From Geodermatophilus sabuli (GTDB lineage Bacteria > Actinomycetota > Actinomycetes > Mycobacteriales > Geodermatophilaceae), in contig NZ_OBDO01000001.1 of assembly GCF_900215145.1 (NCBI RefSeq), positions 186,001 to 250,000 on the forward strand: 64,000 bases of DNA, read 5' to 3'. The notes beneath the pieces are model-generated. The model was not told the origin of the DNA. It did not search any database and worked only from the letters and a program-made list of their open reading frames with translations. Of this stretch, positions 5,012 through 51,444 are shown one piece after another; positions within the stretch are counted from its first letter, which is position 1; the number at the start of each line of letters is the position of its first letter. The position numbers and the translations under genes were made by a program.

Positions 5012-5662
5012 TCACAGATCAGCCCGCAGCTGGACGGCGAGGATGGTGACCTGGGTGCGCCGCTGCATGCCCAGCTTGCCCAGGAGTCGGGTGACGTAGT
5101 TCTTCACCGTCTTCTCTGTCAGACGCAGCCGGGCGCCGATCTCCCGGTTGGACAGACCCTCACCCAGCAGCTCGAAGACAGCCCGCTTCTGGGGTGTGAG
5201 TGCGGCGAGCAGTCGGGTCGGGTCCGTCGTGGCGGTGCTGCGCTCTTGTGCCGCGGTGACCGCGGCTGGGTCCAGCAGCTCACCGCCTGCGGCGACGGTG
5301 CGCACCGCGCGGACCAGGTCCGCGCCCGGCACGTCCTTGTGCAGGTAGGCCGACACCCCGGCGAGGACCGCGTCCATCAGCCCTTCGTCGTCGTAGCCGA
5401 TCAGGATGACCACCTGCAGCTCGGGCAGGCGGGCGCGCAGCTCCCGGCAAACGGTCACGCCGTCCCCGTCAGGCAGACTCAGCCCGAAGATCCCGACGTC
5501 CGGGCGCACCGCGGGTACCCGGGCCAGGGCGCCGGTCGCAGTGCTGGCCTCGCCGACCACGGTGAGGTCGCCGGCCTCCGTCAGTACTCCGGCGATGCCG
5601 CGGCGGGTGACCTCGTGGTCATCGAGCAGGAAAACCCTTGTCGGTGCGTGGCCGTCGCTCAT
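5012..5662 (-). CDS. NarL/FixJ-type response regulator with a degenerate receiver domain
   Basis: 216 residues from the ATG at 5662, which has AGGTGGGG just upstream. A longer frame to 5917 lacks support. Receiver residues about 8-125 keep the acidic pair D14-D15 and K109. The phosphoacceptor Asp is replaced by Gly60 (context PDVGIFGLSLPDG), and the conserved Thr/Ser is Ile88 (VVILIGYDD). A LuxR-type HTH covers residues about 150-212 (LTPQKRAVFELLGEGLSNREIGARL). Without the Asp, normal phosphorelay control is unlikely. It may be constitutive or controlled by ligand or protein binding. No histidine kinase lies nearby. Confidence 0.9.
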   Translation of the reverse strand: MSDGHAPTRVFLLDDHEVTRRGIAGVLTEAGDLTVVGEASTATGALARVPAVRPDVGIFGLSLPDGDGVTVCRELRARLPELQVVILIGYDDEGLMDAVLAGVSAYLHKDVPGADLVRAVRTVAAGGELLDPAAVTAAQERSTATTDPTRLLAALTPQKRAVFELLGEGLSNREIGARLRLTEKTVKNYVTRLLGKLGMQRRTQVTILAVQLRADL

Positions 5663-5779
5663 CTCGCCCCACCTTTCCCCACCGTCGCCGCCTCGACGGT
5701 CTGTCTCCACCGTCGGACGGACCCGGACCACATCCGGCGGTGACTGCCGTGCGAGTGAGCCCCCCGGACGGATCACAGG

Positions 5780-6109
5780 GTGAACGAAGAGCAGCTCGCC
5801 ATCGTCCGCTGCTACAAGCGCCGCGAGCCGGCAGAGAAGCTGGACATCCCCGAGACCTGGCTGAAGAGGTGGGTCACTGCCCGGTGCGTCCCGCACCAGC
5901 GCAGCGGTGACCCCCACGCGAAGCAGCAGCGGGGGGTGTGGTTCACCGCGGCGGACATCCTGGAGATCGGCCGGATGTTGCCCGAGCTCATGACGTCGCG
6001 TCAGGCAAAGGCGGCCGCATGCGCCACCCTGGACATCCCGTCGCTGGGCGCACCGGAGCTCATCAGCACCGAGTTGGTGGACAAGTGGGCCACCATCGGC
6101 CTGACCTAG
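5780..6109 (+). CDS. Excisionase-like small DNA-binding protein
   Basis: 109 residues from a GTG at 5780. The N-terminal half (AEKLDIPETWLKRWVTARCVPHQ, then KQQRGVWFTAADILEIGRML) matches the winged-helix layout of excisionase/MerR-like HTH_17 proteins: a helix-turn-helix, a basic wing and an F/Y-T-x-x-D-L-x-x-I turn. Such proteins bend attachment DNA and steer integrases towards excision. Its place in the same tRNA-bounded element as the integrase supports this. The C-terminal 45 residues are not recognised. A plain transcriptional regulator is the alternative. Confidence 0.65.
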   Translation: MNEEQLAIVRCYKRREPAEKLDIPETWLKRWVTARCVPHQRSGDPHAKQQRGVWFTAADILEIGRMLPELMTSRQAKAAACATLDIPSLGAPELISTELVDKWATIGLT

Positions 6110-6516
6110 TCCGCGGCTCCCAGTTGTCTCTTGCGTAGCGATACTGGTCCCGCCACCCCGATGCGGTCATGCCAGGCGGCGCCGGCCGAGCCCGTCGGCC
6201 AGATGGCTGATCGCCGTTTGCCGATCCTGTCGCCGACCTACCGGATGATCACGGTGTGGAAGGGCGACAGTCCGGGGTGGAGCTCCCACCCAGATGGCGC
6301 TGGCGACGGCTCGAGAGGCCATGAAGCTGATCATCGGAAAGGGCAACGCAGCCTGAGTCGCGGCGCGCTCATGCACGGCTCATCGGCACGCAACGAGGTG
6401 TGCCTGACCGGCGGGCCACGCTGTCGCCCGGTCGGGGCTGCCCGGTGGGCTGCGTGAGGTCCGTGTGCCTGGGGGGATGGGAGCTGTGGCGGCTGGACCT
6501 TCTCCAACACGCCGGA
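6110..6516. other. About 400 bases with no supported gene inside the element
   Basis: A plus-strand frame at 6131-6457 exists but has no recognisable motif and atypical residue use. I see no RNA gene. A remnant of a former cargo gene is possible but cannot be shown. Confidence 0.35.
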
Positions 6517-6544
6517 GCGCCCCCGGCCGTGAGACCGGGGGCGC
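6517..6544. terminator. Intrinsic-type hairpin downstream of the integrase
   Basis: A perfect 10-bp stem (GCGCCCCCGG at 6517-6526, complement at 6535-6544) encloses an 8-base loop. It lies 12 bp after the integrase stop on the minus strand. No U-tract follows, as is common in actinomycetes. Confidence 0.7.
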
Positions 6545-6555
6545 ACCGTGGGATG

Positions 6556-8026
6556 TCAGGCGGCGAGGTCGTCCGCGTCGTCGATGTCGAACTCGGGCAT
6601 CTGCTCCTCCGCCGGGGTGAGCGTCACGACCGTGGCCCCCTGTTCATCGCGGGCCAGCACGTCGGGCAGGAGTCCGTCGACGATGGTGGTGGCCCGGTCG
6701 TCGGACTCGGTGGTGATGTGCCCGTAGACGTCCTGCGTGGTGGTGGTCGAGCTGTGCCCGAGCCGCTTGGCGACCACGATCGGCGCCTCGCCGGCGCACA
6801 GCAGCCAGGCGGCGTGCGTGTGCCTCAGATCGTGGATGCGGATCGCCGTCGGCACGCCGACGCCGGCGGCGGCCACGGCCTCCGTCCAGTACCGCTTGTG
6901 GAAGTTGCCGTGGTGCAGCGGGTCGCCGGGCCTGCCCTCGACCATGTTGAACACGTAGTCCTCCGACCCCTTGCCCTCGACGAGCGGACGCAGCACCTGC
7001 ACCAGCTTGGCCGGCAGCAGGATGCGGCGGATCGAGGACCGCGTCTTCGGCCGCCCGAGCGTCCACTTCCGACCGCGCCACTTCAGCGCCAGCCGGATGT
7101 CGACGTAGGGACGGTCGGCGTCGAGGTGCAGGTGGCGCACGAGCAGGCCAGCCGCCTCGCCGTAGGGCGCCGGTGCCCACCAGGAAGTCCAGCAGCGGTC
7201 GGAAGTGCGCGTGCATGGCACACCGCAGCGCGGCGTAGGCCGCGGCGTCGTTCAGGAAGAACATCTCCCGCCGGTCCTGCTTGGGCAGCCGGATCCCGGT
7301 GGCCGGGTTGAGGTCCAGCAGCGGCGGCCGCTCCCGGATCGCCATGTCGAAGCACTGGCCCAGCACGGTGAGCACGTTGCCGATGAAGTCGTAGCTGATC
7401 AGCGTCCCGGGCCGGAGGCGACCCATGTTGTCCCGCTTCGGCGTGGCCTCCATCTTCTTCAGCCAGTCGTCCTCCACGTACAGCGCGCCGGGGAGCGCGT
7501 CGGCGGACCGCAGCGGCCGGGTGCGCTGGATCAGCGCGATGTCCGTGTCGCCGAAGAACGGCAGCAGGTGGTACTTCCCGTAGCTCTCGTACAGCGTCCG
7601 GGTCCCCTTTCGGATGTGGCGGTGCCGCTCCAGGAACCTCGTCCACAGCTCGCGGAACGACACCCCGGTCAGCCGGTCGTCCGCCACGCCGGTGGTCGGG
7701 GTCGCCGCCGACGTCAGCCCCGGCGTGGGCTGCAGCGGGGCCGCCGCCGCCCTCGCGGCCGGTCGGGAGGTCGGGAGGCCCCGCTCGGCGAGCACCGACG
7801 CGAGAAGCGTCCGCCGGGAGGCCAGGTCGGGGGCGTCCATCACCTGGCAGGCCGTCTCCGGGCCGAGGTGCGCGGCCATGCTGATGAAGTCGTCGGCCTG
7901 GCCCCGCGTGTACAGGCGGCCGTAGTAGGAGCGGGCGGGCAGGCCGCTGCCGGGCGTGTTGCGCCAGTACACGCGGTGCTGGCGGCCGCGCTTCTCGATC
8001 CACATGCTGGGGGGCTTGAGGGCCAT
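6556..8026 (-). pseudogene. Tyrosine recombinase/phage integrase, frameshifted
   Basis: The ATG at 8026 opens a frame of 287 residues with an N-terminal arm-binding part and a core-binding SAM-like domain (FRELWTRFLERHRHIRKGT...). It ends at GTGA near 7166. The catalytic domain continues in another frame from 7164: YGEAAGLLVRHLHLDAD, HDLRHTHAAWLL, LGHSS and DVYGH with the nucleophilic Tyr, stopping at 6556. The join needs one base skipped or two restored. Family proteins read TGxRxxE here, and the Arg codon is reduced to a single C at 7165. So the lesion hits catalytic Arg I. A sequencing error is possible; otherwise the integrase is inactive. Confidence 0.85.
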
Positions 8027-8120
8027 CGTGACGTTCTCCGTGCGGTGAGCGGTCGGTTGACCGGCCGCACGGTGCGCAGCGGGATCCGCTAGTCAGTCGC
8101 CCCGCCACTGCCCCTGAAGT

Positions 8121-8139
8121 GCCCCCCAGATTGCCCCCT
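8121..8139 (+). repeat. C-rich motif shared by both element ends
   Basis: GCCCCCCAGATTGCCCCCT here resembles GCCCCCCAATCTGCCCCCC at about 1205-1223 in the same orientation (about 15 of 19 bases). Each lies about 110 bp inside an att repeat, between it and the element body. They are candidate arm-type integrase sites. Confidence 0.45.
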
Positions 8140-8194
8140 CATCGAGGGGGCAGCGGGGTCCCGACTGCCGTCGCCGACGGCTTCGGAGACGGTG

Positions 8195-8226
8195 GAGGCC
8201 CTGGTCAGTCGCCTGACCAGGGCCTC
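8195..8226. terminator. Hairpin after tRNA-His
   Basis: A perfect 14-bp stem (8195-8208 with 8213-8226) around a TCGC loop, 9 bp beyond the tRNA 3' end on the minus strand. The stem equals that at 1030-1061 apart from the loop, so the element seems to have brought a matching terminator along with the restored tRNA 3' end. Confidence 0.7.
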
Positions 8227-8229
8227 TCC

Positions 8230-8262
8230 GCGTGGGGTGAGTGACGGGGCTCGAACCCGCGA
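8230..8262 (+). repeat. Right attachment site, 33-bp repeat within tRNA-His
   Basis: Identical to 1064-1096. It overlaps the acceptor and T-arm 3' strand of the intact tRNA-His, so integration here kept the tRNA functional. Confidence 0.85.
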
Positions 8263-8308
8263 CACCCAGGATCACAACCTGGTGCTCTACCAGCTGAGCT
8301 ACACCCAC
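8236..8308 (-). tRNA. tRNA-His (GTG)
   Basis: The 73-nt minus-strand cloverleaf has acceptor GTGGGTG pairing with CACTCAC, D-arm TAGCTCAGCTGGTAGAGC, anticodon loop TTGTGAT (GUG) and T-arm GGGTTCGAGCCCC. The template base before it (8309) would give the extra G-1 that pairs with C73, a hallmark of tRNA-His. CCA is not encoded. It serves as the integration site of the neighbouring element. Confidence 0.95.
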
Positions 8309-8376
8309 CACGTCACCCGGCCGGCCGCTGGCGAGAGCGGGGCGGCCGGGGAACCGGGACCACGATACCGGGCGGC

Positions 8377-9051
8377 TCAGATCCCCGACGCGGTGGGTGG
8401 CGCGCCCGCCTCGCCGGCCTCCTCGACCGCGAAGACGGCGGCGAAGGCCTCGGTGACCTCCGCGGAGGCCGCCTGCGCCTCGGACGTCGAGGGACCGGGG
8501 CCGTCGACGAACAGGGTCCTGCGGTAGTAGGCCAGCTCACGCACGGACTCGATGATGTCGGCCAGCGCGCGGTGGGCCAGCCCCTTCTGCGGCTGGGCGA
8601 AGTACACCCGGGGGAACCAGCGGCGGGCCAGCTCCTTGATCGACGAGACGTCGATCATCCGGTAGTGCAGGTGGTCGTCGAGCTCCGGCATGTCGCGGGC
8701 GAGGAAGCCGCGGTCGGTGCCGATCGAGTTCCCGCACAGCGGCGCGGTGCGCCGCTCGGGGACGAAGCGCTTCACGTAGGCCAGCAGCTGCTGCTCGGCC
8801 TCGGCGACGGTGAGCGTCGTGGCCCGGACGGCGTCGGTGAGGCCGGACTTCGCGTGCATCTCGGTGACGACGTCGGCCATGCCGTCCAGGTCGGCGTCGG
8901 GTGCCGAGATCACCAGGTCCAGCCCCGGGTCCAGCACGTTGAGCTCGGAGTCGGTGACGAGGACCGCGACCTCGATGAGCTTGTCCCGGGTCAGGTCCAA
9001 CCCGGTCATCTCGCAGTCGATCCAGACCAGGTGTCCCGCACTCTCCGCCAC
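8377..9051 (-). CDS. orn: Oligoribonuclease
   Basis: 224 residues from a GTG at 9051; upstream starts to 9159 add unrelated residues. It is a DEDDh 3'-5' exonuclease: [11 protein letters not shown] holds the first Asp and Glu, [11 protein letters not shown] the next Asp, and HRALADI the His and final Asp region. It degrades 2-5-nt RNAs and the linear dinucleotide pGpG from c-di-GMP breakdown, which suits a genome with two GGDEF-EAL proteins in this window. The C-terminal 45 residues are Ala/Glu-rich and variable. It sits alone, upstream of tRNA-His on the same strand. Confidence 0.95.
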
Positions 9052-9201
9052 GTCGCACGACCCTACGTCCCGCCCGCCACGGCCGCCCGCGTGCATGCCG
9101 TCTACCGCATGCGGCACACCGGCGCCACTCGAGGGGCGGGGATCGGGGGTGTCCGCCACTAGGCTCGGTCGGGTCCCGTCCCGAGCCCAGGAGCAACCGC
9201 C

Positions 9202-10416
9202 GTGCCCGCTGCCTCAGCACCCGTCGCGACCGAGCGACCGGTTCCGCCGGCGCCGGGATCACTGCCCGCCGCGCTGCGCCACCCGATCGCCGCCCTGCGC
9301 TGGCTGTGGCCGGCGTACCTGACCCCCGGGCGCCCGGGCCGGCCGACCTCGCAGGAGGAGCTGCGGTGGATCTACACCGCCTGGCTCGGTGCCTTCCTCC
9401 TGAAGATGCTCGGCTCCTCGTGGGACGTCTCCTGGCACTTCCGGTGGCTGCGCGACGACCTGGCCCCGCCGCACCTGCTCAACTCCGCGGGCACCGCCGT
9501 CGTCGTGGCGCTCGTGGTGTTCCACAGCTACAGCGGCTACGGCGTCGACCGCCGCGCGCTGCGGCTCATGCAGGTGGGCATCGCCACCTTCCTGGTCGCC
9601 ATCCCGATCGACATCCTCAACCACCGCATCAACGGTCTGGACATCACCAGCTGGAGCCCCAGCCACGCGCTGCTCTACATCGGAACGGCGATCATGCTGG
9701 CCGGCGCGATCCGCGGCTGGTGGCTGTACGCCGCGCCGGGCCGGGTCCGCGACCTCGTCGCGCTGGGCCTGTGGCTGTTCTTCGTCGAGAACGTCGTGTT
9801 CCCCAACCAGCACCAGGAGTACGGCGTCCTCTCGCTGGAGGCCTACGACGCCGGCCGGACGACGGCCGAGCCGCAGCTGCTGGACTTCGCCGCCTCACAG
9901 GGCCAGACGCCGGCGATGTTCATGCTGCCGGTGCCCTCGTGGGTGCACCCGGCGTGGATGCTCTGCGCCGGCCTGCTGGCCCTCGTGGTGGCCCGGAAGC
10001 TCGTCGGCCTTCGGTGGACCGCCACCGTCGTCGCCGGCACCTACCTGGCCTACCGCGCGGTCATGTGGCTCGGCTTGGTCGCGATGGACTTCCCGCCGTC
10101 GGTGCTCCCGCTCGTGCTCGTCGTGGGCGCGGTGGCCGTCGACCTGGCGGTGACCTGGCGGGTTCCCGGGTGGCTCGCCGCGCCGGTGGTCACCGCCGTC
10201 TTCTACGCCGCCGGGGCGCTGCAGGACGCCATCGGGTTCCTGCCCCCGTGGAACTGGACGTGGTGGTCGGTGCTGCTGGTCGGAGCCGCCTTCACCGGCC
10301 TCTGGACCGCGGTGGACCTCGTGGCCCGCAGCCGCTGGCTGACCGCCTGGGCACAGCCGGTGGAGCCGGGGCTGGCGGTCCCGGCCGGCCGGTCCGGCGG
10401 CGCGCCGACCCCCTGA
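9202..10416 (+). CDS. Multi-pass membrane protein of unknown function
   Basis: 404 residues from a GTG at 9202. After a Pro/Ala-rich cytoplasmic start there are about nine hydrophobic segments, beginning at [15 protein letters not shown] and ending at [19 protein letters not shown]. Conserved-looking polar residues sit near membranes ([35 protein letters not shown]), which suggests an active or binding site facing one side of the membrane. I do not recognise the family. It is divergent from orn with a gap of about 150 bp. Confidence 0.75.
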
Positions 10417-10559
10417 GCGCTGCGGCTCGTCCCGTCACATGACGTAACGTCTACATAACGACTCTGCCGGGAGCGGGTTCCGCCTCGCCCCGTTCGCCGC
10501 GGGCGACCAGCGCCGATGCGCGCCGCCCCCATCCCGACCCGACCCGCCCGGAGGACGAC

Positions 10560-12350
10560 GTGCTGCCCCTCACCCCCCTGCCGCTGCAGACGGCGGGTGA
10601 GCGCGCGCTGTTCGAGGAACTGCGCCGCTGGGACACCGGTGGGGCGGTCCGCGGCGCGGTCATGGCCTCGATCCCGGTGGTCGACGGGCCGATGGAGCGC
10701 CGGCTCTCCGACGCCGTCCTGTTCGTGCCCGAGGGGCTGGCCGTCGTCCGCGTGGTCGAGGTGGTCCGCCAGAGCGGCGTCGTCACCGCGTCCGCCGAAG
10801 GCGCCTGGACCATCGGCCCCGAGGCGGGGCGCCCCGGTGACGTCCTCCAGCTCGCCGGCGGCGGCTCCAGCCCGCTCGACGGCCTCATGCGGGCGGGCAT
10901 GGACGCCGCCGTCCGGCTGCGCCGCGCGGGCCTCGAGCCCGGTCGCATCGCCCGGCTGACCGTGCTCGTCGGGGAGCTCGCCGGGCTGGTCCCCGCCGAC
11001 GGCGACCTCGGGGAGGGCGACCAGGTCGCCCTCCTGGAGCCACGGTCACTGCTGCTCGGCATCGCCCGCAGCGCGCGCTACACGGGGGTGGACAACCCCC
11101 GGTTGTGGACGACGGCCGACGTGCGGGCCGCGCTGGAGGCGCTGGGCCTGGCCGGCCGCGGCCCGTCGGTCCAGGAGCTCAACGGTGAGGGCTTCCCGTA
11201 CTCGCCGTACGTCCTGCGCACCCCCGAGCTGCTGGCCCCGGCCGCGATGGCGGCGGCCCCCCGGTTCGCGGCCCCGGCGACGGCTCCGGCGCCGGACCAC
11301 TCCCCACCGCACGCCGCCGCCACGCCCTGGCAGGCGCCCGCCCGTCCACTGGTGGACCCGGCGGCGGCCGCGGCGGTCGCGGCCGCCGCCATCCGTGCCG
11401 ACGAGGAGGCCGCGGCCCGCGCGGCCGAGGCGCGGGACGCCGCGGTCGCCCAGGCCCTCGTCTCGACGCCGGGTCCCGCGGAGAGCCCGCCCGGCGGCCC
11501 GAAGGACACCCTCGTCGGGCCGACGGTGGGTGTCACCGCCGACGAGACCGGCGGCATCGGCGGCCTGTTCGCCGGCGCGGAGCGGGAGGACGCCCCGCCG
11601 GCGTCGGCCGCCCCGGCGCAGCCGTCCCCTCCTCCGGTCACGGACCCGCCGCCCGCGGTCCGGGGGCCCCTGCCCGACGGCGTGCCGCTCGTCGCGGCCC
11701 GGACGCGCCCGTCGTCGTCGCGGCGGGCGGCGCTGCTCGTCGCCGTGGCGCTGGCGCTCGTCGCCGTCCTGGGGATCGGTGCGGCGCTGCTGTTCGGCGA
11801 CGACGAGACCCCTGCCGCCTCCGGCGCCGTGCCCTCGGAGGCCGGCAACACGGCCGAGCCCGACGTCGCGACCGGCCCCGAGCCGGGTGACCGCGAGGTG
11901 GTCGACGGCAACACCTTCGTCGTCGAGGAGGTCCGGGTCGACGCCACCTGCGTGGGCAACGCCTACGGCACGGTCGCCGACTTCTTCGCCGACACCGACT
12001 GCACCGGCCTGGCCCGGGCCCTGTACTCCACCGAGACCGGCGGCCGCCCGGTCGTCGTCTCGGTCGTCACGGTCGACATGGGTGACACCGCGGGAGCGCG
12101 GGCCCTGCGCGCGCTCACCGACCGCAACGGCAGCGGCAACGTCAGCGACCTGCTGCGTGAGGGGGTGCGCTACGACGGCGGTCCCGACGGGCTCAGCGGG
12201 GCCGAGTACGCCAGCGCCGTCTCCGGCAGCACGGTGACCATCGTGGAGACCGCCTGGGCGGCGCCCGGTGCCACCGGCAGCACCGCCGACCTCGACGTGC
12301 TCGCGTCGACGGCGCTCGTGCTCCCGATGCCGGAGTCCGCCGCCGACTGA
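10560..12350 (+). CDS. Hypothetical single-pass membrane-anchored protein
   Basis: 596 residues from a GTG at 10560. Residues 1-220 look like a globular cytoplasmic domain starting TAGERALFEELRRW, which faintly resembles NERD-type starts but lacks clear nuclease motifs. Residues about 225-385 are an Ala/Pro-rich linker. One membrane segment (ALLVAVALALVAVLGIGAALLFG) lies at about 391-413. The outer 180 residues contain three Cys (DATCVGNAY, DTDCTGL region) and VVVSVVTVDMGDTAGARAL, a sensor-like extracellular domain. The function is unknown. It ends 46 bp before the convergent TetR gene stop. Confidence 0.75.
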   Translation: MLPLTPLPLQTAGERALFEELRRWDTGGAVRGAVMASIPVVDGPMERRLSDAVLFVPEGLAVVRVVEVVRQSGVVTASAEGAWTIGPEAGRPGDVLQLAGGGSSPLDGLMRAGMDAAVRLRRAGLEPGRIARLTVLVGELAGLVPADGDLGEGDQVALLEPRSLLLGIARSARYTGVDNPRLWTTADVRAALEALGLAGRGPSVQELNGEGFPYSPYVLRTPELLAPAAMAAAPRFAAPATAPAPDHSPPHAAATPWQAPARPLVDPAAAAAVAAAAIRADEEAAARAAEARDAAVAQALVSTPGPAESPPGGPKDTLVGPTVGVTADETGGIGGLFAGAEREDAPPASAAPAQPSPPPVTDPPPAVRGPLPDGVPLVAARTRPSSSRRAALLVAVALALVAVLGIGAALLFGDDETPAASGAVPSEAGNTAEPDVATGPEPGDREVVDGNTFVVEEVRVDATCVGNAYGTVADFFADTDCTGLARALYSTETGGRPVVVSVVTVDMGDTAGARALRALTDRNGSGNVSDLLREGVRYDGGPDGLSGAEYASAVSGSTVTIVETAWAAPGATGSTADLDVLASTALVLPMPESAAD

Positions 12351-46095: not shown

Positions 46096-47136
46096 GTGGA
46101 CGGCTCTCCGAAGCGGATCGGTTTCCTGTCCTTCGGGCACTGGCAGCCGGTCCCCGGATCACAGGTGCGCACCGGCCGCGACGCGCTGGTGCAGAGCATG
46201 GAACTGGCGGTCGCCGCCGAGGAGCTCGGCGTGGACGGTGCCTTCGTGCGCGTGCACCACTTCGCCCGGCAGCTGGCCTCCCCGTTCCCCCTGCTGGCCG
46301 CCATGGCCGCGCGGACCTCCCGGATCGAGATCGGCACCGGGGTCGTCGACATGCGGTACGAGAACCCGCTGTACATGGCCGAGGAGGCCGCCGCGACCGA
46401 CCTGCTCGCCGACGGCCGGCTGCAGCTCGGCATCAGCCGGGGGTCACCCGAGACGGCGCTGCGCGGCTCGGAGGCCTTCGGGTACATCCCCGCCGAGGGC
46501 ACCTCGGACGCCGACTTCGCCCGGCAGAAGACCGCGCTGTTCCTCGCCGCGATCTCCGGTCAGCCGGTGGTGGACGCCGACCCGCAGATGACCGGCGGGA
46601 TGACCGGCCGGCTGGCGGTCCAGCCGCAGTCGCCGGGCCTGGCCGAGCGCATCTGGTGGGGGTCGGGGACCCGCGCGACCGCCGAGTGGACGGCGCGGCA
46701 GGGCATGAACCTGATGAGCTCCACCCTGCTGGTCGAGGACACCGGCGTGCCGTTCGACGAGCTGCAGGCCGAGCAGATCGCCCGCTACCGGGCGACCTGG
46801 GCCGACGCGGGCTGGGAGCGGACGCCGCGGGTGTCGGTCAGCCGCAGCGTGATGCCGATCGTCACCGACCTGGACCGGCAGTACTTCGGTGAGCGGTCCG
46901 GCGACGACCAGGTCGGCCTGCTCGAGGGCGTGCGGGCCCGCTTCGGGAAGAGCTACGTCGGCGAGCCTGACCAGCTGGCCGAGGAGCTGGCCAAGGACGC
47001 CGCCGTCCGCGAGGCCGACACCCTGCTGCTGACCGTGCCCAACATGCTCGGCGTGGACTACAACGCCCGCCTGCTGGAGACGGTCGTCCGCCACGTGGCC
47101 CCCGCCATCGGCTGGGTGCCTCCCGCCGAGCGCTGA
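46096..47136 (+). CDS. LLM-class flavin- or F420-dependent oxidoreductase
   Basis: 346 residues from a GTG at 46096 with GAGAGGTGGAG just upstream. The luciferase-like TIM barrel is seen in IGFLSFGHW, EELGVDGAFVRVHHFARQ, ARTSRIEIGTGVVDMRYENP and LLADGRLQLGISRGSPE. Its cofactor may be FMN or F420; fbiC lies in the same window, but the family alone does not settle this. It could act on aldehydes or aromatic compounds. It is divergent from the PAS-GGDEF-EAL gene. Confidence 0.88.
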   Translation: MDGSPKRIGFLSFGHWQPVPGSQVRTGRDALVQSMELAVAAEELGVDGAFVRVHHFARQLASPFPLLAAMAARTSRIEIGTGVVDMRYENPLYMAEEAAATDLLADGRLQLGISRGSPETALRGSEAFGYIPAEGTSDADFARQKTALFLAAISGQPVVDADPQMTGGMTGRLAVQPQSPGLAERIWWGSGTRATAEWTARQGMNLMSSTLLVEDTGVPFDELQAEQIARYRATWADAGWERTPRVSVSRSVMPIVTDLDRQYFGERSGDDQVGLLEGVRARFGKSYVGEPDQLAEELAKDAAVREADTLLLTVPNMLGVDYNARLLETVVRHVAPAIGWVPPAER

Positions 47137-47150
47137 CCTCCCTCCGCCGC

Positions 47151-47192
47151 ACAGGGCGGTGCCGCCGGGTCCGCCCGGCGGCACCGCCCTGT
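47151..47192. terminator. Perfect 19-bp bidirectional hairpin
   Basis: Arms 47151-47169 and 47174-47192 pair perfectly around a TCCG tetraloop between the convergent LLM and DUF4333 genes. Confidence 0.88.
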
Positions 47193-47205
47193 GTCGTCGC
47201 CGGGG

Positions 47206-47883
47206 TCAGGCCACCTCGTAGCTGACGTCGCCGGCCTCGTCCACCGTGGCGAGGACGTCGATGCTGTCGGTGGCGTCCTCGGCGTTGGTGACCGTGCAGG
47301 GGATCGGCGTGCCCGTGGCGCCGACCAGCACGCCGCGGCCCTCGGTCTCGCAGGTGGCGACCGCCTCGACGCCGGCCTCGGCGCCGACCTGCTGGGCCAG
47401 GGACTCCTCCACGGTGGCGACGACGACGAAGGTCTCGTCGCTCTCGATCTGGACGTTGCCCTCGGCGTCGGTCTGCTCGACGGTGAAGCGGATCGGCTGG
47501 CCGTCCAGCGTGGCGGTGCAGGAGAACGTGCCGCCGGCCTCGGCCTCGACGTCCTCGGGGCAGGAGACGTCGGCCGCCGCCACGCCGACCTGCTCCTCGG
47601 TGAGCGTGGCGATCTGCCGCTCGGCCTCGGCGGTGTCGATGGTGGTCGTGCCAAACAGGAGGACCGCGCCGACGGCCAGGCCCGCGACGAGGACCAGCAC
47701 GCCGACGACGGCGCCGACGATCGCGCCCGTCTTCTTCCGCGGGGCGGGCGGCTGCGGGGGGCCGAAGCCGGCCGGCGGGGGGCCGCACGGCGACTGGCCG
47801 TACGGGGCCGCCGGCTGACCGGGGGCGCCGACGGGTGGGAGCGGCGGCTGCGGGTGGCCGGGGGTGTTGATCTGCTGGGTCAT
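47206..47883 (-). CDS. Proline-rich membrane protein with two DUF4333-like domains
   Basis: 225 residues from the ATG at 47883, preceded by GGAGG. Residues 1-50 are Pro/Gly-rich and cytoplasmic. One membrane segment (AIVGAVVGVLVLVAGLAVGAVLLFG) follows. Outside are two similar domains, each with a Cys pair: VSCPEDVEAEAGGTFSCTATLDG and VATCETEGRGVLVGATGTPIPCTV. This is the DUF4333 layout common in actinobacterial envelope proteins. The function is unknown. Confidence 0.8.
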   Translation of the reverse strand: MTQQINTPGHPQPPLPPVGAPGQPAAPYGQSPCGPPPAGFGPPQPPAPRKKTGAIVGAVVGVLVLVAGLAVGAVLLFGTTTIDTAEAERQIATLTEEQVGVAAADVSCPEDVEAEAGGTFSCTATLDGQPIRFTVEQTDAEGNVQIESDETFVVVATVEESLAQQVGAEAGVEAVATCETEGRGVLVGATGTPIPCTVTNAEDATDSIDVLATVDEAGDVSYEVA

Positions 47884-48298
47884 GGTTCCTCCTCCAACGG
47901 GGCTCGGGAGGGACCCTGGCGGGAAGGCCTTTTGCCGCACTTGTCGCTGCCTGGTGGCCGACTTGGAGACCGGCCCGAGCCGGGTCCGGACGTGGCGGTG
48001 GTGATGGGCGCGCAGCGCCGGATGGCGGGCTCAGCCGGAGCTGGCCGACGGGCGTCCCAGCCGCGCGCTGGTGGCCGGGTCCTCGTCGGCCGAGTGCGAG
48101 GTGTGCGTTCCCTCGCGCGCGGACGAGGGCGCCCGCCATGCAGGGTTGGGCACGCCCATGCTCGACGTGTGTGGCGGCACGCACACTGTTGGCAGCCATA
48201 ACAGTGCGGAGCGTGACGAACCGCGCGTTACCGTGCTGGTCCCCGCGGCGTTCGGAGCCCGCGGTGATGCACGAGTTCGACTGATCTGGGGGCGCGCG
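47884..48298. other. Intergenic region with an inverted repeat upstream of the secreted protein gene
   Basis: The 415 bp between divergent genes show no convincing small gene. CACTGTT (48184-48190) and AACAGTG (48200-48206) form an inverted repeat with a 9-base spacer about 95 bp before the chosen start. It could be an operator. Confidence 0.4.
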
Positions 48299-51200
48299 GT
48301 GCGCGGACGTTCTGGACGCGCGCGGTGGCGCGCGCAGGTGGTGATGCTCCTGGCGGGGCTCGCCCTGGCGGGGGCGATGGTCGTCCCAGGGCAACAACTG
48401 GCGGGCGCGGCGCCGGTCCCGTGGGAGTACGACACGACGGTGGACCTGGTGGCGCTGACGAAGGACCACGCCCCAGCACCGACCGTCGTCGACTGGGACG
48501 GTGACGGTCGGGACGACCTCGTCCTCGGACTGCGCACCGCGGAACAGTTCGGCGGGGTGGCTGTTGCCACTCGAGGCCCCGATGGGGGCCTTGGGCCGCT
48601 GGCGTCGGTCTTCACCGCCGGCTCCGTGTCGTCCGTGGCCGGCTCCGTGTCCTTCGTCCGGCCGTCCGTCACGGACTGGAACGGGGACGGCCGGAACGAC
48701 CTGCTCTTCGGCACGCTCACCGGCAGCAAGGGCGTCCACCTCTGTCTCGCAGCGGCCACCGGGGTGGACGGTGGGAGTTGCGGGCAGCTGCGCACGACGA
48801 GCGGCGCGCTGGTCGGGGGGACGACCGGCAGCAGCACCGCCTACGTCTCCCCGGAGGTCGTGGACTGGGACCGGGACGGCGACGCGGACCTGCTCGTCGG
48901 CACCGGGGGAGTGGCCAACGAGAAGGCCGTCCGGCTCTACGCCAACGTCGGAACGGCGACGGTCCCGGTGCTCGAGGACCCGCGGACCGTGGTGTCCCGC
49001 TCGACCTCCGGCCTCGGGACCGAGAGCTATTTCGAGCCGACGGTCGTCGACATCGACGACGACGGCAGGCGCGACCTCCTCGTCGCCGGATCGAGGGACG
49101 GCACGACTCAGCAGTTCTCCCTCCGGCAGTGCCTGAACAGCGGGACCGACGCCGCCCCGGCGTTCCGGTCCTGCACGTCGAGGAGCCTGCCCGGGCTGGT
49201 GCACAACGTGGTGGACACGGCCGACTGGGACGGCGACGGCTACCTCGACCTGGTCCGTGGCTTCCACTCCGCATTCGTGGACAACCCAGTGACGATGCTG
49301 CACGGCGAGGCGCCGGACACCGATGGCGACGGACTCTCGGATTCCCTCGACAACTGCCCGACGACGCCGAACGAGCCGGACCTGGAGCTCGACAACGCCA
49401 ACCCCGCCCAGTTGGACACCGATGGGGACGGCGCCGGGGACGCTTGTGACCCGGACGACGACGGCGACGCCACCGCCGACGGCGCCGACAACTGCCCGTG
49501 GACGCCCAACCGCGACCAGGCCGACGGCGACGGGGACGGCCGGGGGGACCGCTGCGACGCCCGTGACGACCGGACGGACCACCCCGGGGCCGGGTCCTAC
49601 GAGGTGCAGATGGCGGACCGGATCGGGTGGGGCCGAAAGCCCGTCATCACCCAGCGGGCGGACGCGATGTCCGTCGGCTACCGGCAGGAGATCGCGGAGG
49701 CCCTGACGGACGAGTCGCTCGCTCGCGGTCTGCCCTTCAGCCTTGCTGTCATCCCCTGGGACACGCAGCGGTTCGGCGCCGCCCGCGGCTCCGCGTACCT
49801 CGACGAGGTGATCGACGACCCCAACTTCGAGGCGGTCCAGCACGGTACCTACCACACCTGCGTCTACAGCCCCTACGTCGAGGAGCACGGCACCTCGGCG
49901 GCGGAGTTCGACTGCGGTATGGACGCCGCCCGGTCGTACAACCTGATGCGGGTCGGTCACGACGCGATGCTCGAAACGGTGGACTTCGGGCGTGCATCGC
50001 ACCAGCTGAGCGGATTCGTGCCGCCGACGGACGCCTATGACGCGGCGGCCGGCGAGGCCATCCAGGCCCTCGGCTACCGCTGGGTCGCGTCCGCCTGGTA
50101 CGCCGAGACGCCGAGGTTCACCTACGTGGACGACACCGGTCTCGTACACCTGCCGTGGTCGCAGATCGCTTGCGGCAACGGAGCTGCGTCGTGGACCGAC
50201 TGCCAGCGCACCGACACCCAGGGGATGGCCGCGCACAGCGGCGTGGACTGCGACGACCCCGAGGTGTGCACTCCGACCCGGGACGGCAAGGACTACTCGG
50301 ACTGGGAGCAGTACGCCTCGACGTCGCTGGCCGACCGCTGCCGCAACGACTTCGAGCGCTACGGGGTCTGCTCCGTCCTGTACGAGCTCACGTCCTTCGA
50401 CGGCGACTTCAGGACCGGCGCGCTCGACCCGGTGGCGTTCGCGGGCTTCCAGCAGACCCTGACCGAGCTCCAGCACCTGGCGGCCGACAGCGGTGCGGTG
50501 TTCATGACCCTCGGGGACTACGCGGCCGCGCTGCAGGCCGAGGACAGCGTGGCGCCGGCGATCGAGATCGCCACGCCGGGGGAGCGCAGTTACGGCTACC
50601 AGGAGACGTTGACCGTCGACGTCGCGGTCTCCGACGACCTCAGCGGCATCCATGAGGCGGTGATCCTCCTCGACGGTGCCGCGGTCGAGGACGGCGCATC
50701 GATCGACCTGTCCTCGTTCTCCCTCGGTGAGCACACCCTCCAGGTGACGGCCGCGGACGTCGCGGGAAACACGAGCTCGTCGAGCGTCACGTTCACCGTC
50801 GTCGACTCGGTTCCGCCGACGATCTCGATCGCCAGTCCCACGGCAGCGGACTACGAACACCACGAGGTGGTTCCGGTCGACGTCGAGGTCGGGGACGCCA
50901 AGAGCGGCATCGGCGACGTGCGGATCACCCTGGACGGAGCCGACGTGGCCGACGGTGCTGCGCTCGACCTGCTGGAGCTGCCGCTGGGTGAGCACACGCT
51001 GTCGGTCGAGGCGCGGGACGAGTCGGACAACGTGAGCAGACAGAGCGTGACGTTCGCCGTCCGGGCGTCGCTCACCTCGCTGCAGGCCACGCTGGAGCGG
51101 TATGCCGCCGAGGGCGTCATCGTCGGCCAGGGGCTCGTCCGCAGCTTGGAGCGGGAGCTCGCGGCCGCCGAGGCCGCGTTCGACCGTGGACGGATCTCGG

Positions 51201-51322
51201 CCGCGGCGAACCAGCTGCGGGCCTTCGCGCAGCACGTCAGGGCGCGCGAGGACAAGGACATCCCCTCGGCCGCCGCCGAGCTGCTCGTCACGGATGCGAC
51301 GGTCGTCGTCACGGACCTGTAG
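48299..51322 (+). CDS. Large secreted modular protein (FG-GAP, TSP3, deacetylase-like, Ig-like, FIMAH-like)
   Basis: 1007 residues from a GTG at 48299 with GGGGG upstream; longer in-frame starts exist from 48071. The signal peptide has an Arg-rich start, then [16 protein letters not shown] and AGAAP. Five FG-GAP/VCBS-type repeats (such as [15 protein letters not shown]) lie in residues about 60-320. Thrombospondin type-3 calcium repeats ([13 protein letters not shown]) follow at 340-420. Residues 440-750 resemble a polysaccharide deacetylase fold with QHGTYH. Two Ig-like domains come next (about 755-935), then a helical FIMAH-like end ([27 protein letters not shown]). It probably binds and modifies extracellular glycans. 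No cell-wall anchor is seen. Confidence 0.8.
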
Positions 51323-51336
51323 GGCCCGGGAGCAGC

Positions 51337-51366
51337 GGGGCCCTCGTCGACGTCGACGAGGGCCCC
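51337..51366. terminator. 30-bp perfect palindrome between secreted protein gene and tRNA-Arg
   Basis: Two 15-bp arms (51337-51351 and 51352-51366) are exact complements. It sits 14 bp past the secreted protein stop and 5 bp beyond the tRNA-Arg 3' end, so it can serve both convergent transcripts. Confidence 0.8.
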
Positions 51367-51371
51367 GTCGG

Positions 51372-51444
51372 CGCGCCCGGCAGGGATCGAACCTGCGACC
51401 AAGTGCTTAGAAGGCACCTGCTCTATCCGCTGAGCTACGGGCGC
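51372..51444 (-). tRNA. tRNA-Arg (TCT)
   Basis: A 73-nt minus-strand cloverleaf: acceptor GCGCCCG with CGGGCGC, D-arm TAGCTCAGCGGATAGAGC, anticodon loop CTTCTAA (UCU, reads AGA) and T-arm CAGGTTCGATCCCTG. CCA is not encoded. Confidence 0.95.

Follow-up and report, generated by a model that had tools for sequence, protein, structure and literature searches.

What does a deacetylase-like domain do in a protein otherwise composed of calcium-type repeats, Ig-like modules and a FIMAH domain, when part of the residues expected of a deacetylase are replaced? This question is raised by a gene of Geodermatophilus sabuli found at 48299-51322 of the window, i.e., the whole stretch of 64,000 nucleotides that was analysed. 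The answer depends on whether the middle part of the protein adopts the deacetylase fold, on which residues of the active site are kept, and on how widely this arrangement is conserved.

Architecture, distribution and genomic setting

From its N-terminus onwards, the protein is built of a signal-like start, FG-GAP repeats, thrombospondin type-3 repeats, a middle domain, two Ig-like modules and a FIMAH domain (Table 1), and it is encoded in an open frame whose upstream limit is at 48071. The earlier note had listed these domains and had called their combination uncommon, and both statements are borne out. FG-GAP, TSP_3 and FIMAH exceed their Pfam cut-offs in the 1007-aa protein. The Pfam matches of the Ig-like modules remain narrowly below cut-off (Big_13, 25.6 vs 27; Glucodextran_B, 24.8 vs 27), and the NCBIfam domain model NF047446 covers these modules with 43.9 against a cut-off of 40, in two stretches, the best of which is 769-834. 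Solved thrombospondins and COMP match the protein at E 1.5e-14 to 2.3e-25, with the best stretches in residues 340-428, and the protein contains 12 D-x-[D/N]-x-D motifs, whereas 1000 shuffles gave 1.6 on average and never more than 8. The FG-GAP/type-3 part probably binds calcium, and the product is likely secreted. An antisense open frame of 1457 aa at 46862-51235 (-) runs through the gene, in all likelihood as a shadow of the high-G+C coding strand.

Table 1. Coordinates of the gene, of the parts of its product and of adjacent elements in the window
Feature	Position	Strand	Basis or remark
Whole coding sequence	48299..51322	+	1007 aa; GTG start 48299, stop ends 51322
Signal-peptide-like N-terminus, residues ~1-38	48299..48412	+	Arg-rich, hydrophobic stretch, Ala-rich end; read from the sequence by eye
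FG-GAP repeats with calcium-type DxDxD motifs, residues ~44-336	48428..49306	+	FG-GAP_3 (PF13517), 57.1 bits, four stretches; motif count
Thrombospondin type-3 repeats, residues ~337-425	49307..49573	+	TSP_3 (PF02412), 42.3 bits, two stretches; thrombospondin/COMP sequence matches
NodB-like (deacetylase-type) barrel, residues 437-750	49607..50548	+	hhalign profile comparison; predicted model
Motif-1 equivalent R-A-D-A-M-S, residues 453-458	49655..49672	+	R, A, D, A, S invariant in 4/4
Motif-2 H-G-T-Y-H, residues 515-519, metal-type His pair	49841..49855	+	Invariant in 4/4
Glu-Phe, residues 536-537, common to DUF2334 rows	49904..49909	+	Invariant in 12/12
Motif-3 equivalent G-F-(V/I)-P-P-x-D-x-Y, residues 572-580, no Arg	50012..50038	+	Second Pro invariant in 12/12
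Family-specific stretch, residues ~610-692	50126..50374	+	Six of the eight invariant barrel Cys; low-confidence part of the model
Glu696, aligned to motif-5 His	50384..50386	+	Invariant in 4/4
Two Ig-like modules, residues ~751-922	50549..51064	+	Pfam near cut-off; NCBIfam NF047446
FIMAH domain, residues 926-1003	51074..51307	+	PF22888, 49.8 bits
Hairpin directly 3' of the stop codon, 15 bp stem, candidate terminator	51335..51368	+	Fold -36.3 kcal/mol
tRNA-Arg (TCT)	51370..51444	-	ARAGORN; Rfam 51372-51444

A scan of genome contigs revealed three loci with a relative of the middle domain, in Georgenia sp. EYE_87 (72%; barrel identities 228/314), Nostocoides sp. F2B08 (69%; 218/314) and Anaeromyxobacter terrae (53%; 169/306), the last of which is a myxobacterium. 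Full-length alignment of these relatives gives identities of 65, 60 and 54%, respectively, with a single Ig-like module in the Anaeromyxobacter protein, and the barrel and the type-3 repeats are their best conserved parts. Since three relatives keep the architecture over its full length, it is no accident of a single assembly, and since this conservation spans two phyla, it points to the calcium repeats and the barrel acting as one unit. Because it depends on exact matches to short peptide patterns, the scan may overlook distant members, and thus the family may be larger than the four members considered here.

Whole-genome searches found the middle domain in one of 296 genomes of the phylum of G. 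sabuli, in one of 200 genomes of its order and in one of 26 genomes of its genus, which in each case is its own genome (0/25 for the others of the genus). The situation is the same in the phylum of the Anaeromyxobacter genome, where one genome of 195 contains the domain, namely itself. Two of 198 genomes match in the order of the Georgenia genome, i.e., itself and a chance match (E 0.0034) antisense to a frame of 836 aa, which we take to be leucyl-tRNA synthetase. Likewise, 2/186 genomes match in the family to which the Nostocoides genome belongs, one being the Nostocoides genome and the other a weak match (E 0.0079) that spans 49 profile positions within a frame of 154 aa and was set aside. 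Viral contigs, plasmids and phages yielded no relative of the middle domain. The distribution is therefore rare and patchy across two phyla.

The gene is preceded by an opposite-strand DUF4333 gene and a luciferase-like monooxygenase gene, and followed by tRNA-Arg (TCT), a methyltransferase and an ABC protein, presumably of the ABC-F type. The hairpin behind the stop codon has a z of -3.4, and 0/200 shuffles were equally stable. The ABC gene is present in 25 of the 26 genomes of the genus, own included, and the stretch upstream of it was compared in 20 of the other 24 (loci L057-L076), with the middle domain encoded at that spot in none of the 20. DUF4333 is found in ten of these loci, at 91, 232, 233, 358, 1446, 1659, 1717, 1897, 2070 and 3410 bases from the tRNA as measured from the aligned part of the gene; in the G. 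sabuli window, the DUF4333 gene ends ~3430 bases from tRNA-Arg. Another six loci have only the monooxygenase, 24 to 5360 bases from the tRNA, and in four neither anchor was found. The spot beside tRNA-Arg is variable, and with the middle domain encoded there in 0/20 loci, gain of the gene by this genome is the simplest account. A scan of 46500-51300, which began one base inside the ARAGORN end of the tRNA, revealed no copy of its 3' end (14-30 bases, at most one fifth mismatched), and hence integrase-mediated integration gains no support.

Several observations on this region stand by themselves. The interval from the monooxygenase or DUF4333 to tRNA-Arg (TCT), which corresponds to 47940-51370 of the window, ranges from 24 bases to more than 5 kb in the 16 of 20 loci where it can be measured. 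In locus L057 of the same genus, the same spot (5600-10950) is occupied by other genes, which by eye include a secreted alpha/beta-hydrolase-like peptidase and a methyltransferase. In the Nostocoides locus, a tRNA-Leu (TAG) gene (L003, 6480-6562) ends ~150 bases before the gene of the relative; no tRNA gene was found in the 17-kb Georgenia and Anaeromyxobacter loci.

Fold of the middle domain

Residues 437-750 (~314 residues), which separate the type-3 repeats from the Ig-like modules, have no Pfam match, and in none of the four members did Pfam return one at E up to 10. The cut-offs of PF01522 (CE4/NodB) and PF10096 (DUF2334) were not reached by the middle domain of any of the four, nor did scans against Pfam, NCBIfam and PHROGs at E up to 10 give a convincing match. 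An oxidoreductase model, the sole match of these scans (E 0.11, in one of the four members), and four 4-aminobutyrate aminotransferase sequences from a search of PDB sequences with the four-member profile (E ~0.5) were of no help. When only the four members were used, the structural model was of low quality (pLDDT 43.6, pTM 0.51), and Foldseek found no match to it under E 0.001, the best being at 0.067. In a second structural look at the same model, the top four rows were deacetylases, with Z from 8.5 to 9.1 (HP0310 of H. pylori, Z 9.1). The missing Pfam matches and the poor model obtained without distant DUF2334 rows are what would be expected if the middle domain were no NodB barrel and the HGTYH match were due to chance. 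We consider this very improbable, since the profile match is far above reversed controls, the model that includes those rows is good and has high Z scores, and the order of motifs is the same.

The profile of the four members, compared by hhalign, matches DUF2334 with a probability of 95.2 (E 2.7e-8, one comparison against 12 of 18 genome-search matches, the weak partial L011-L016 being left out) and, weakly, CE4 with 56.9 (E 1.1e-4, against 20 of 26 genome-search matches); the reversed-column controls gave 0.1 and 0.2, respectively. For the predicted barrel, this comparison is a line of evidence independent of the DUF2334 rows that were added to the model. The aided model and the mixed 12-row alignment contain, besides the four members, eight of the 12 DUF2334 rows, chosen for HxxxH, all of which exceed the PF10096 cut-off (seven in one scan, L019 in another); L024-L027, in which the second His of HxxxH is absent, were dropped. 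The profile of the mixed alignment finds chitin and xylan deacetylases of the PDB at E 1.5e-4 to 8e-3 and, with its eight DUF2334 rows, leans towards the DUF2334 fold. As for L024-L027 themselves, these four proteins of the same order are above the DUF2334 cut-off and have neither the second HxxxH His nor the motif-1 Asp, which means that other degenerate NodB-like proteins exist in that order.

With the eight DUF2334 rows, which bias the result towards the NodB fold, the model reached a pLDDT of 78.1 and a pTM of 0.81, and only model residues 191-237 were below pLDDT 50. Foldseek matched this model to 43 PDB chains under E 0.001 (best E 6.3e-8), which include polysaccharide, chitin and xylan deacetylases, ArnD, NDST1, Golgi mannosidase II, GH57 enzymes and a viral turret protein; we take all of these to belong to one superfamily. 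The best VIA match is a polysaccharide deacetylase of M. smegmatis (Z 20.6 over 240 residues, rmsd 3.3), followed by, among others, HP0310 (Z 19.3), PuuE allantoinase (19.0), Agd3 (16.2) and human NDST1 (16.1). In a library of viral structures, 16 predicted proteins, including tail proteins of Arthrobacter phages, matched the aided model under E 0.001. The earlier note had suggested a deacetylase-like region that structure prediction of residues 440-750 should either show as a barrel or disprove, and the barrel is present in the DUF2334-aided model of residues 437-750, with polysaccharide deacetylases as its best matches. Taken together, profile and model show the middle domain as a predicted, divergent NodB barrel akin to DUF2334 and CE4. 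The open-access literature, as searched, contained nothing on a polysaccharide deacetylase with FIMAH or on the FIMAH domain, nothing on DUF2334 with a deacetylase, and nothing that joins polysaccharide deacetylase, thrombospondin type 3 and FG-GAP; DUF2334 by itself occurs there in a single marine-metagenome paper.

Active site and possible function

A typical CE4 enzyme has two tandem Asp in motif 1, which serve as base and metal ligand, two His in motif 2, Arg and Pro in motif 3, Asp in motif 4 and the acid His in motif 5 (PMC10967932, available part). The tandem Asp pair is absent from the protein of G. sabuli and its relatives: a single Asp is placed between two Ala in 4/4 members, and the doubt expressed earlier about the metal Asp pair was thus justified. 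Both His of motif 2, H515 and H519, are present in all four. In the alignment of the members with the DUF2334 rows, the prolines of motif 3 are kept and its Arg is absent; an Arg from elsewhere in the chain may stand in for it, by analogy to CE18. The motif-5 His is replaced, with LYEL in the place of the FYHP or LHP of seven of the eight DUF2334 rows (L020 is gapped there), so that the assignment of Glu696 to this position rests on seven rows. H515, G516, H519, E536, F537 and P576 are invariant in all 12 rows of the mixed alignment. The eight Cys of the barrel, invariant in the four members, suggest disulfides, as might be expected of an exported protein.

Since motif 1 reads R-A-D-A in all four members, one of the two Asp must be Ala in either register. 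MAFFT and the full-length hhalign path, the latter with low confidence there, place D455 opposite the first Asp and Ala456 opposite the second, and the spacing to the beta-2 proline agrees with this in six of the eight DUF2334 rows (of 12) used for the register test. An 11-residue score prefers D455 as the first Asp in four of the eight rows, namely L010 (by a hair), L018, L019 and L020, and as the second in L017, L021, L022 and L023, although L021 scores highest in a third register. With the rows evenly split, Ala is the more probable residue opposite the second Asp, and the register is uncertain by one residue. In CE4 enzymes, the metal ligand is usually given as the second Asp of the pair. 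The two papers available in part disagree on this point: PMC10967932 names the first Asp, while for Agd3 PMC7229062 gives D377 as the base, D378-H510-H514 as the metal triad and H668 as the acid, i.e., the second Asp binds metal. Our analysis follows PMC7229062; the disagreement means that D455 could be a metal ligand in either register.

A broken Asp pair, a motif 3 devoid of Arg and a Glu aligned with the motif-5 His make it most likely that the protein does not catalyse the standard metal-dependent CE4 reaction. We favour, with a probability of roughly 55%, the reading that the gene encodes a secreted, calcium-stabilised multi-domain protein whose divergent NodB barrel binds glycan or performs a non-standard reaction. 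According to this proposal, the FG-GAP and type-3 repeats would form a stiff, calcium-loaded N-terminal part, the cleft of the barrel would meet a glycan that is probably extracellular, and the Ig-like and FIMAH modules would extend or anchor the protein as spacer or anchor.

The His-His pair, the single Asp, the Pro-Pro and the invariant Glu speak against this proposal insofar as they would also fit an active enzyme with a rebuilt site. These residues keep the suggestion of the earlier note, that the protein may bind glycan instead of cutting it, at the level of a possibility. Such a metal-dependent deacetylase would hold its metal by H515 and H519 together with D455 or E696 and would use another base or acid. 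The retention of His-His, Asp and Glu in 4/4 members, the better score of D455 opposite the second (metal) Asp in half of the DUF2334 rows and the disagreement about the metal Asp are all compatible with it, and Agd3 of CE18 is active although its motif 3 has no Arg and its motif 4 is absent (PMC7229062, available part). However, the pair is reduced to a single Asp here, and Agd3 possesses both Asp and the acid His, of which the pair and that His are absent here; we therefore regard an active deacetylase as possible but somewhat unlikely. The degree of conservation cannot tell an enzyme from a binder, since the excess of invariant positions in the motif segments (24/41) over the remaining domain (115/273) is not a clear one (P 0.063).

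GH57 enzymes are not known to need a metal, and with Z ~15 to 17.5 they are among the best structural matches together with PuuE allantoinase, which raises the alternative of a metal-free hydrolase of another kind on the same barrel. PuuE is non-metal-dependent and has motifs 1 to 3 changed, but the second motif-2 His, replaced in PuuE, is kept in our protein (PMC10967932, available part). The profile links, in a comparison limited to two families, are to DUF2334 and CE4, and we judge a hydrolase of this kind to be improbable.

NodB barrels are commonly labelled deacetylases from homology. Here, a known fold is combined with a rare, patchily distributed variant active site that is kept across two phyla: the fold and the metal-type His are retained, but neither the Asp pair nor the Arg nor the acid His, which makes this family a test case for a fold that turns into a binder or takes on another reaction. 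A bolder and rather doubtful extension would be that this small secreted family, with its rebuilt site of His-His, single Asp and Glu for the acid His between calcium repeats and Ig/FIMAH modules, represents a new class of carbohydrate-active enzymes and is transferred between actinobacteria and myxobacteria as a single gene.

Comparison with known systems

The closest relation is to DUF2334 (PF10096), with which the middle domain shares the profile match of 95.2, the order of motifs, and HG..H, E-F and the motif-3 Pro in 12/12 rows. In contrast to the R-x-[E/D]-D or x-H-D of the DUF2334 rows, motif 1 is R-A-D-A here, LYEL replaces FYHP or LHP, there is a Cys-rich family-specific stretch, and the Pfam model PF10096 is not matched. 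The likeness to CE4 (PF01522, NodB) consists of the fold of the model (Z ~15 to 20), the weak profile match of 56.9 and the retained HxxxH and PP, whereas the tandem Asp pair, the motif-3 Arg and the motif-5 His are absent.

The barrel of CE18 Agd3 agrees with the model in the order of motifs (Z 16.2 over 252 residues), and Agd3 also has a motif 3 without Arg and is an extracellular multi-domain protein (PMC7229062, available part). Unlike our protein, Agd3 has D377, D378, the acid H668 and R613 supplied from elsewhere, and of the CE18 residue set described in that part of the paper (two Asp, HxxxH and acid His) only HxxxH and one Asp are present here. MtsC (NF047638), a myxobacterial cell cohesion protein, resembles the type-3 repeats with 58 bits against a cut-off of 350, but the match covers residues 309-422 only and the barrel is outside of it.

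BA3943 and BA0150 of Bacillus, named pseudoenzymes in PDB titles or in the available part of PMC10967932, have a NodB barrel similar to the model (Z ~16). According to the same source, BA0150 groups with MurNAc peptidoglycan deacetylases, whereas the barrel described here is linked to DUF2334 and is embedded in another architecture. NodB proteins acting without this activity have a precedent: two Bacillus proteins of the class are reported to be devoid of deacetylase activity and to stabilise the cell wall (PMC4505593, available part).
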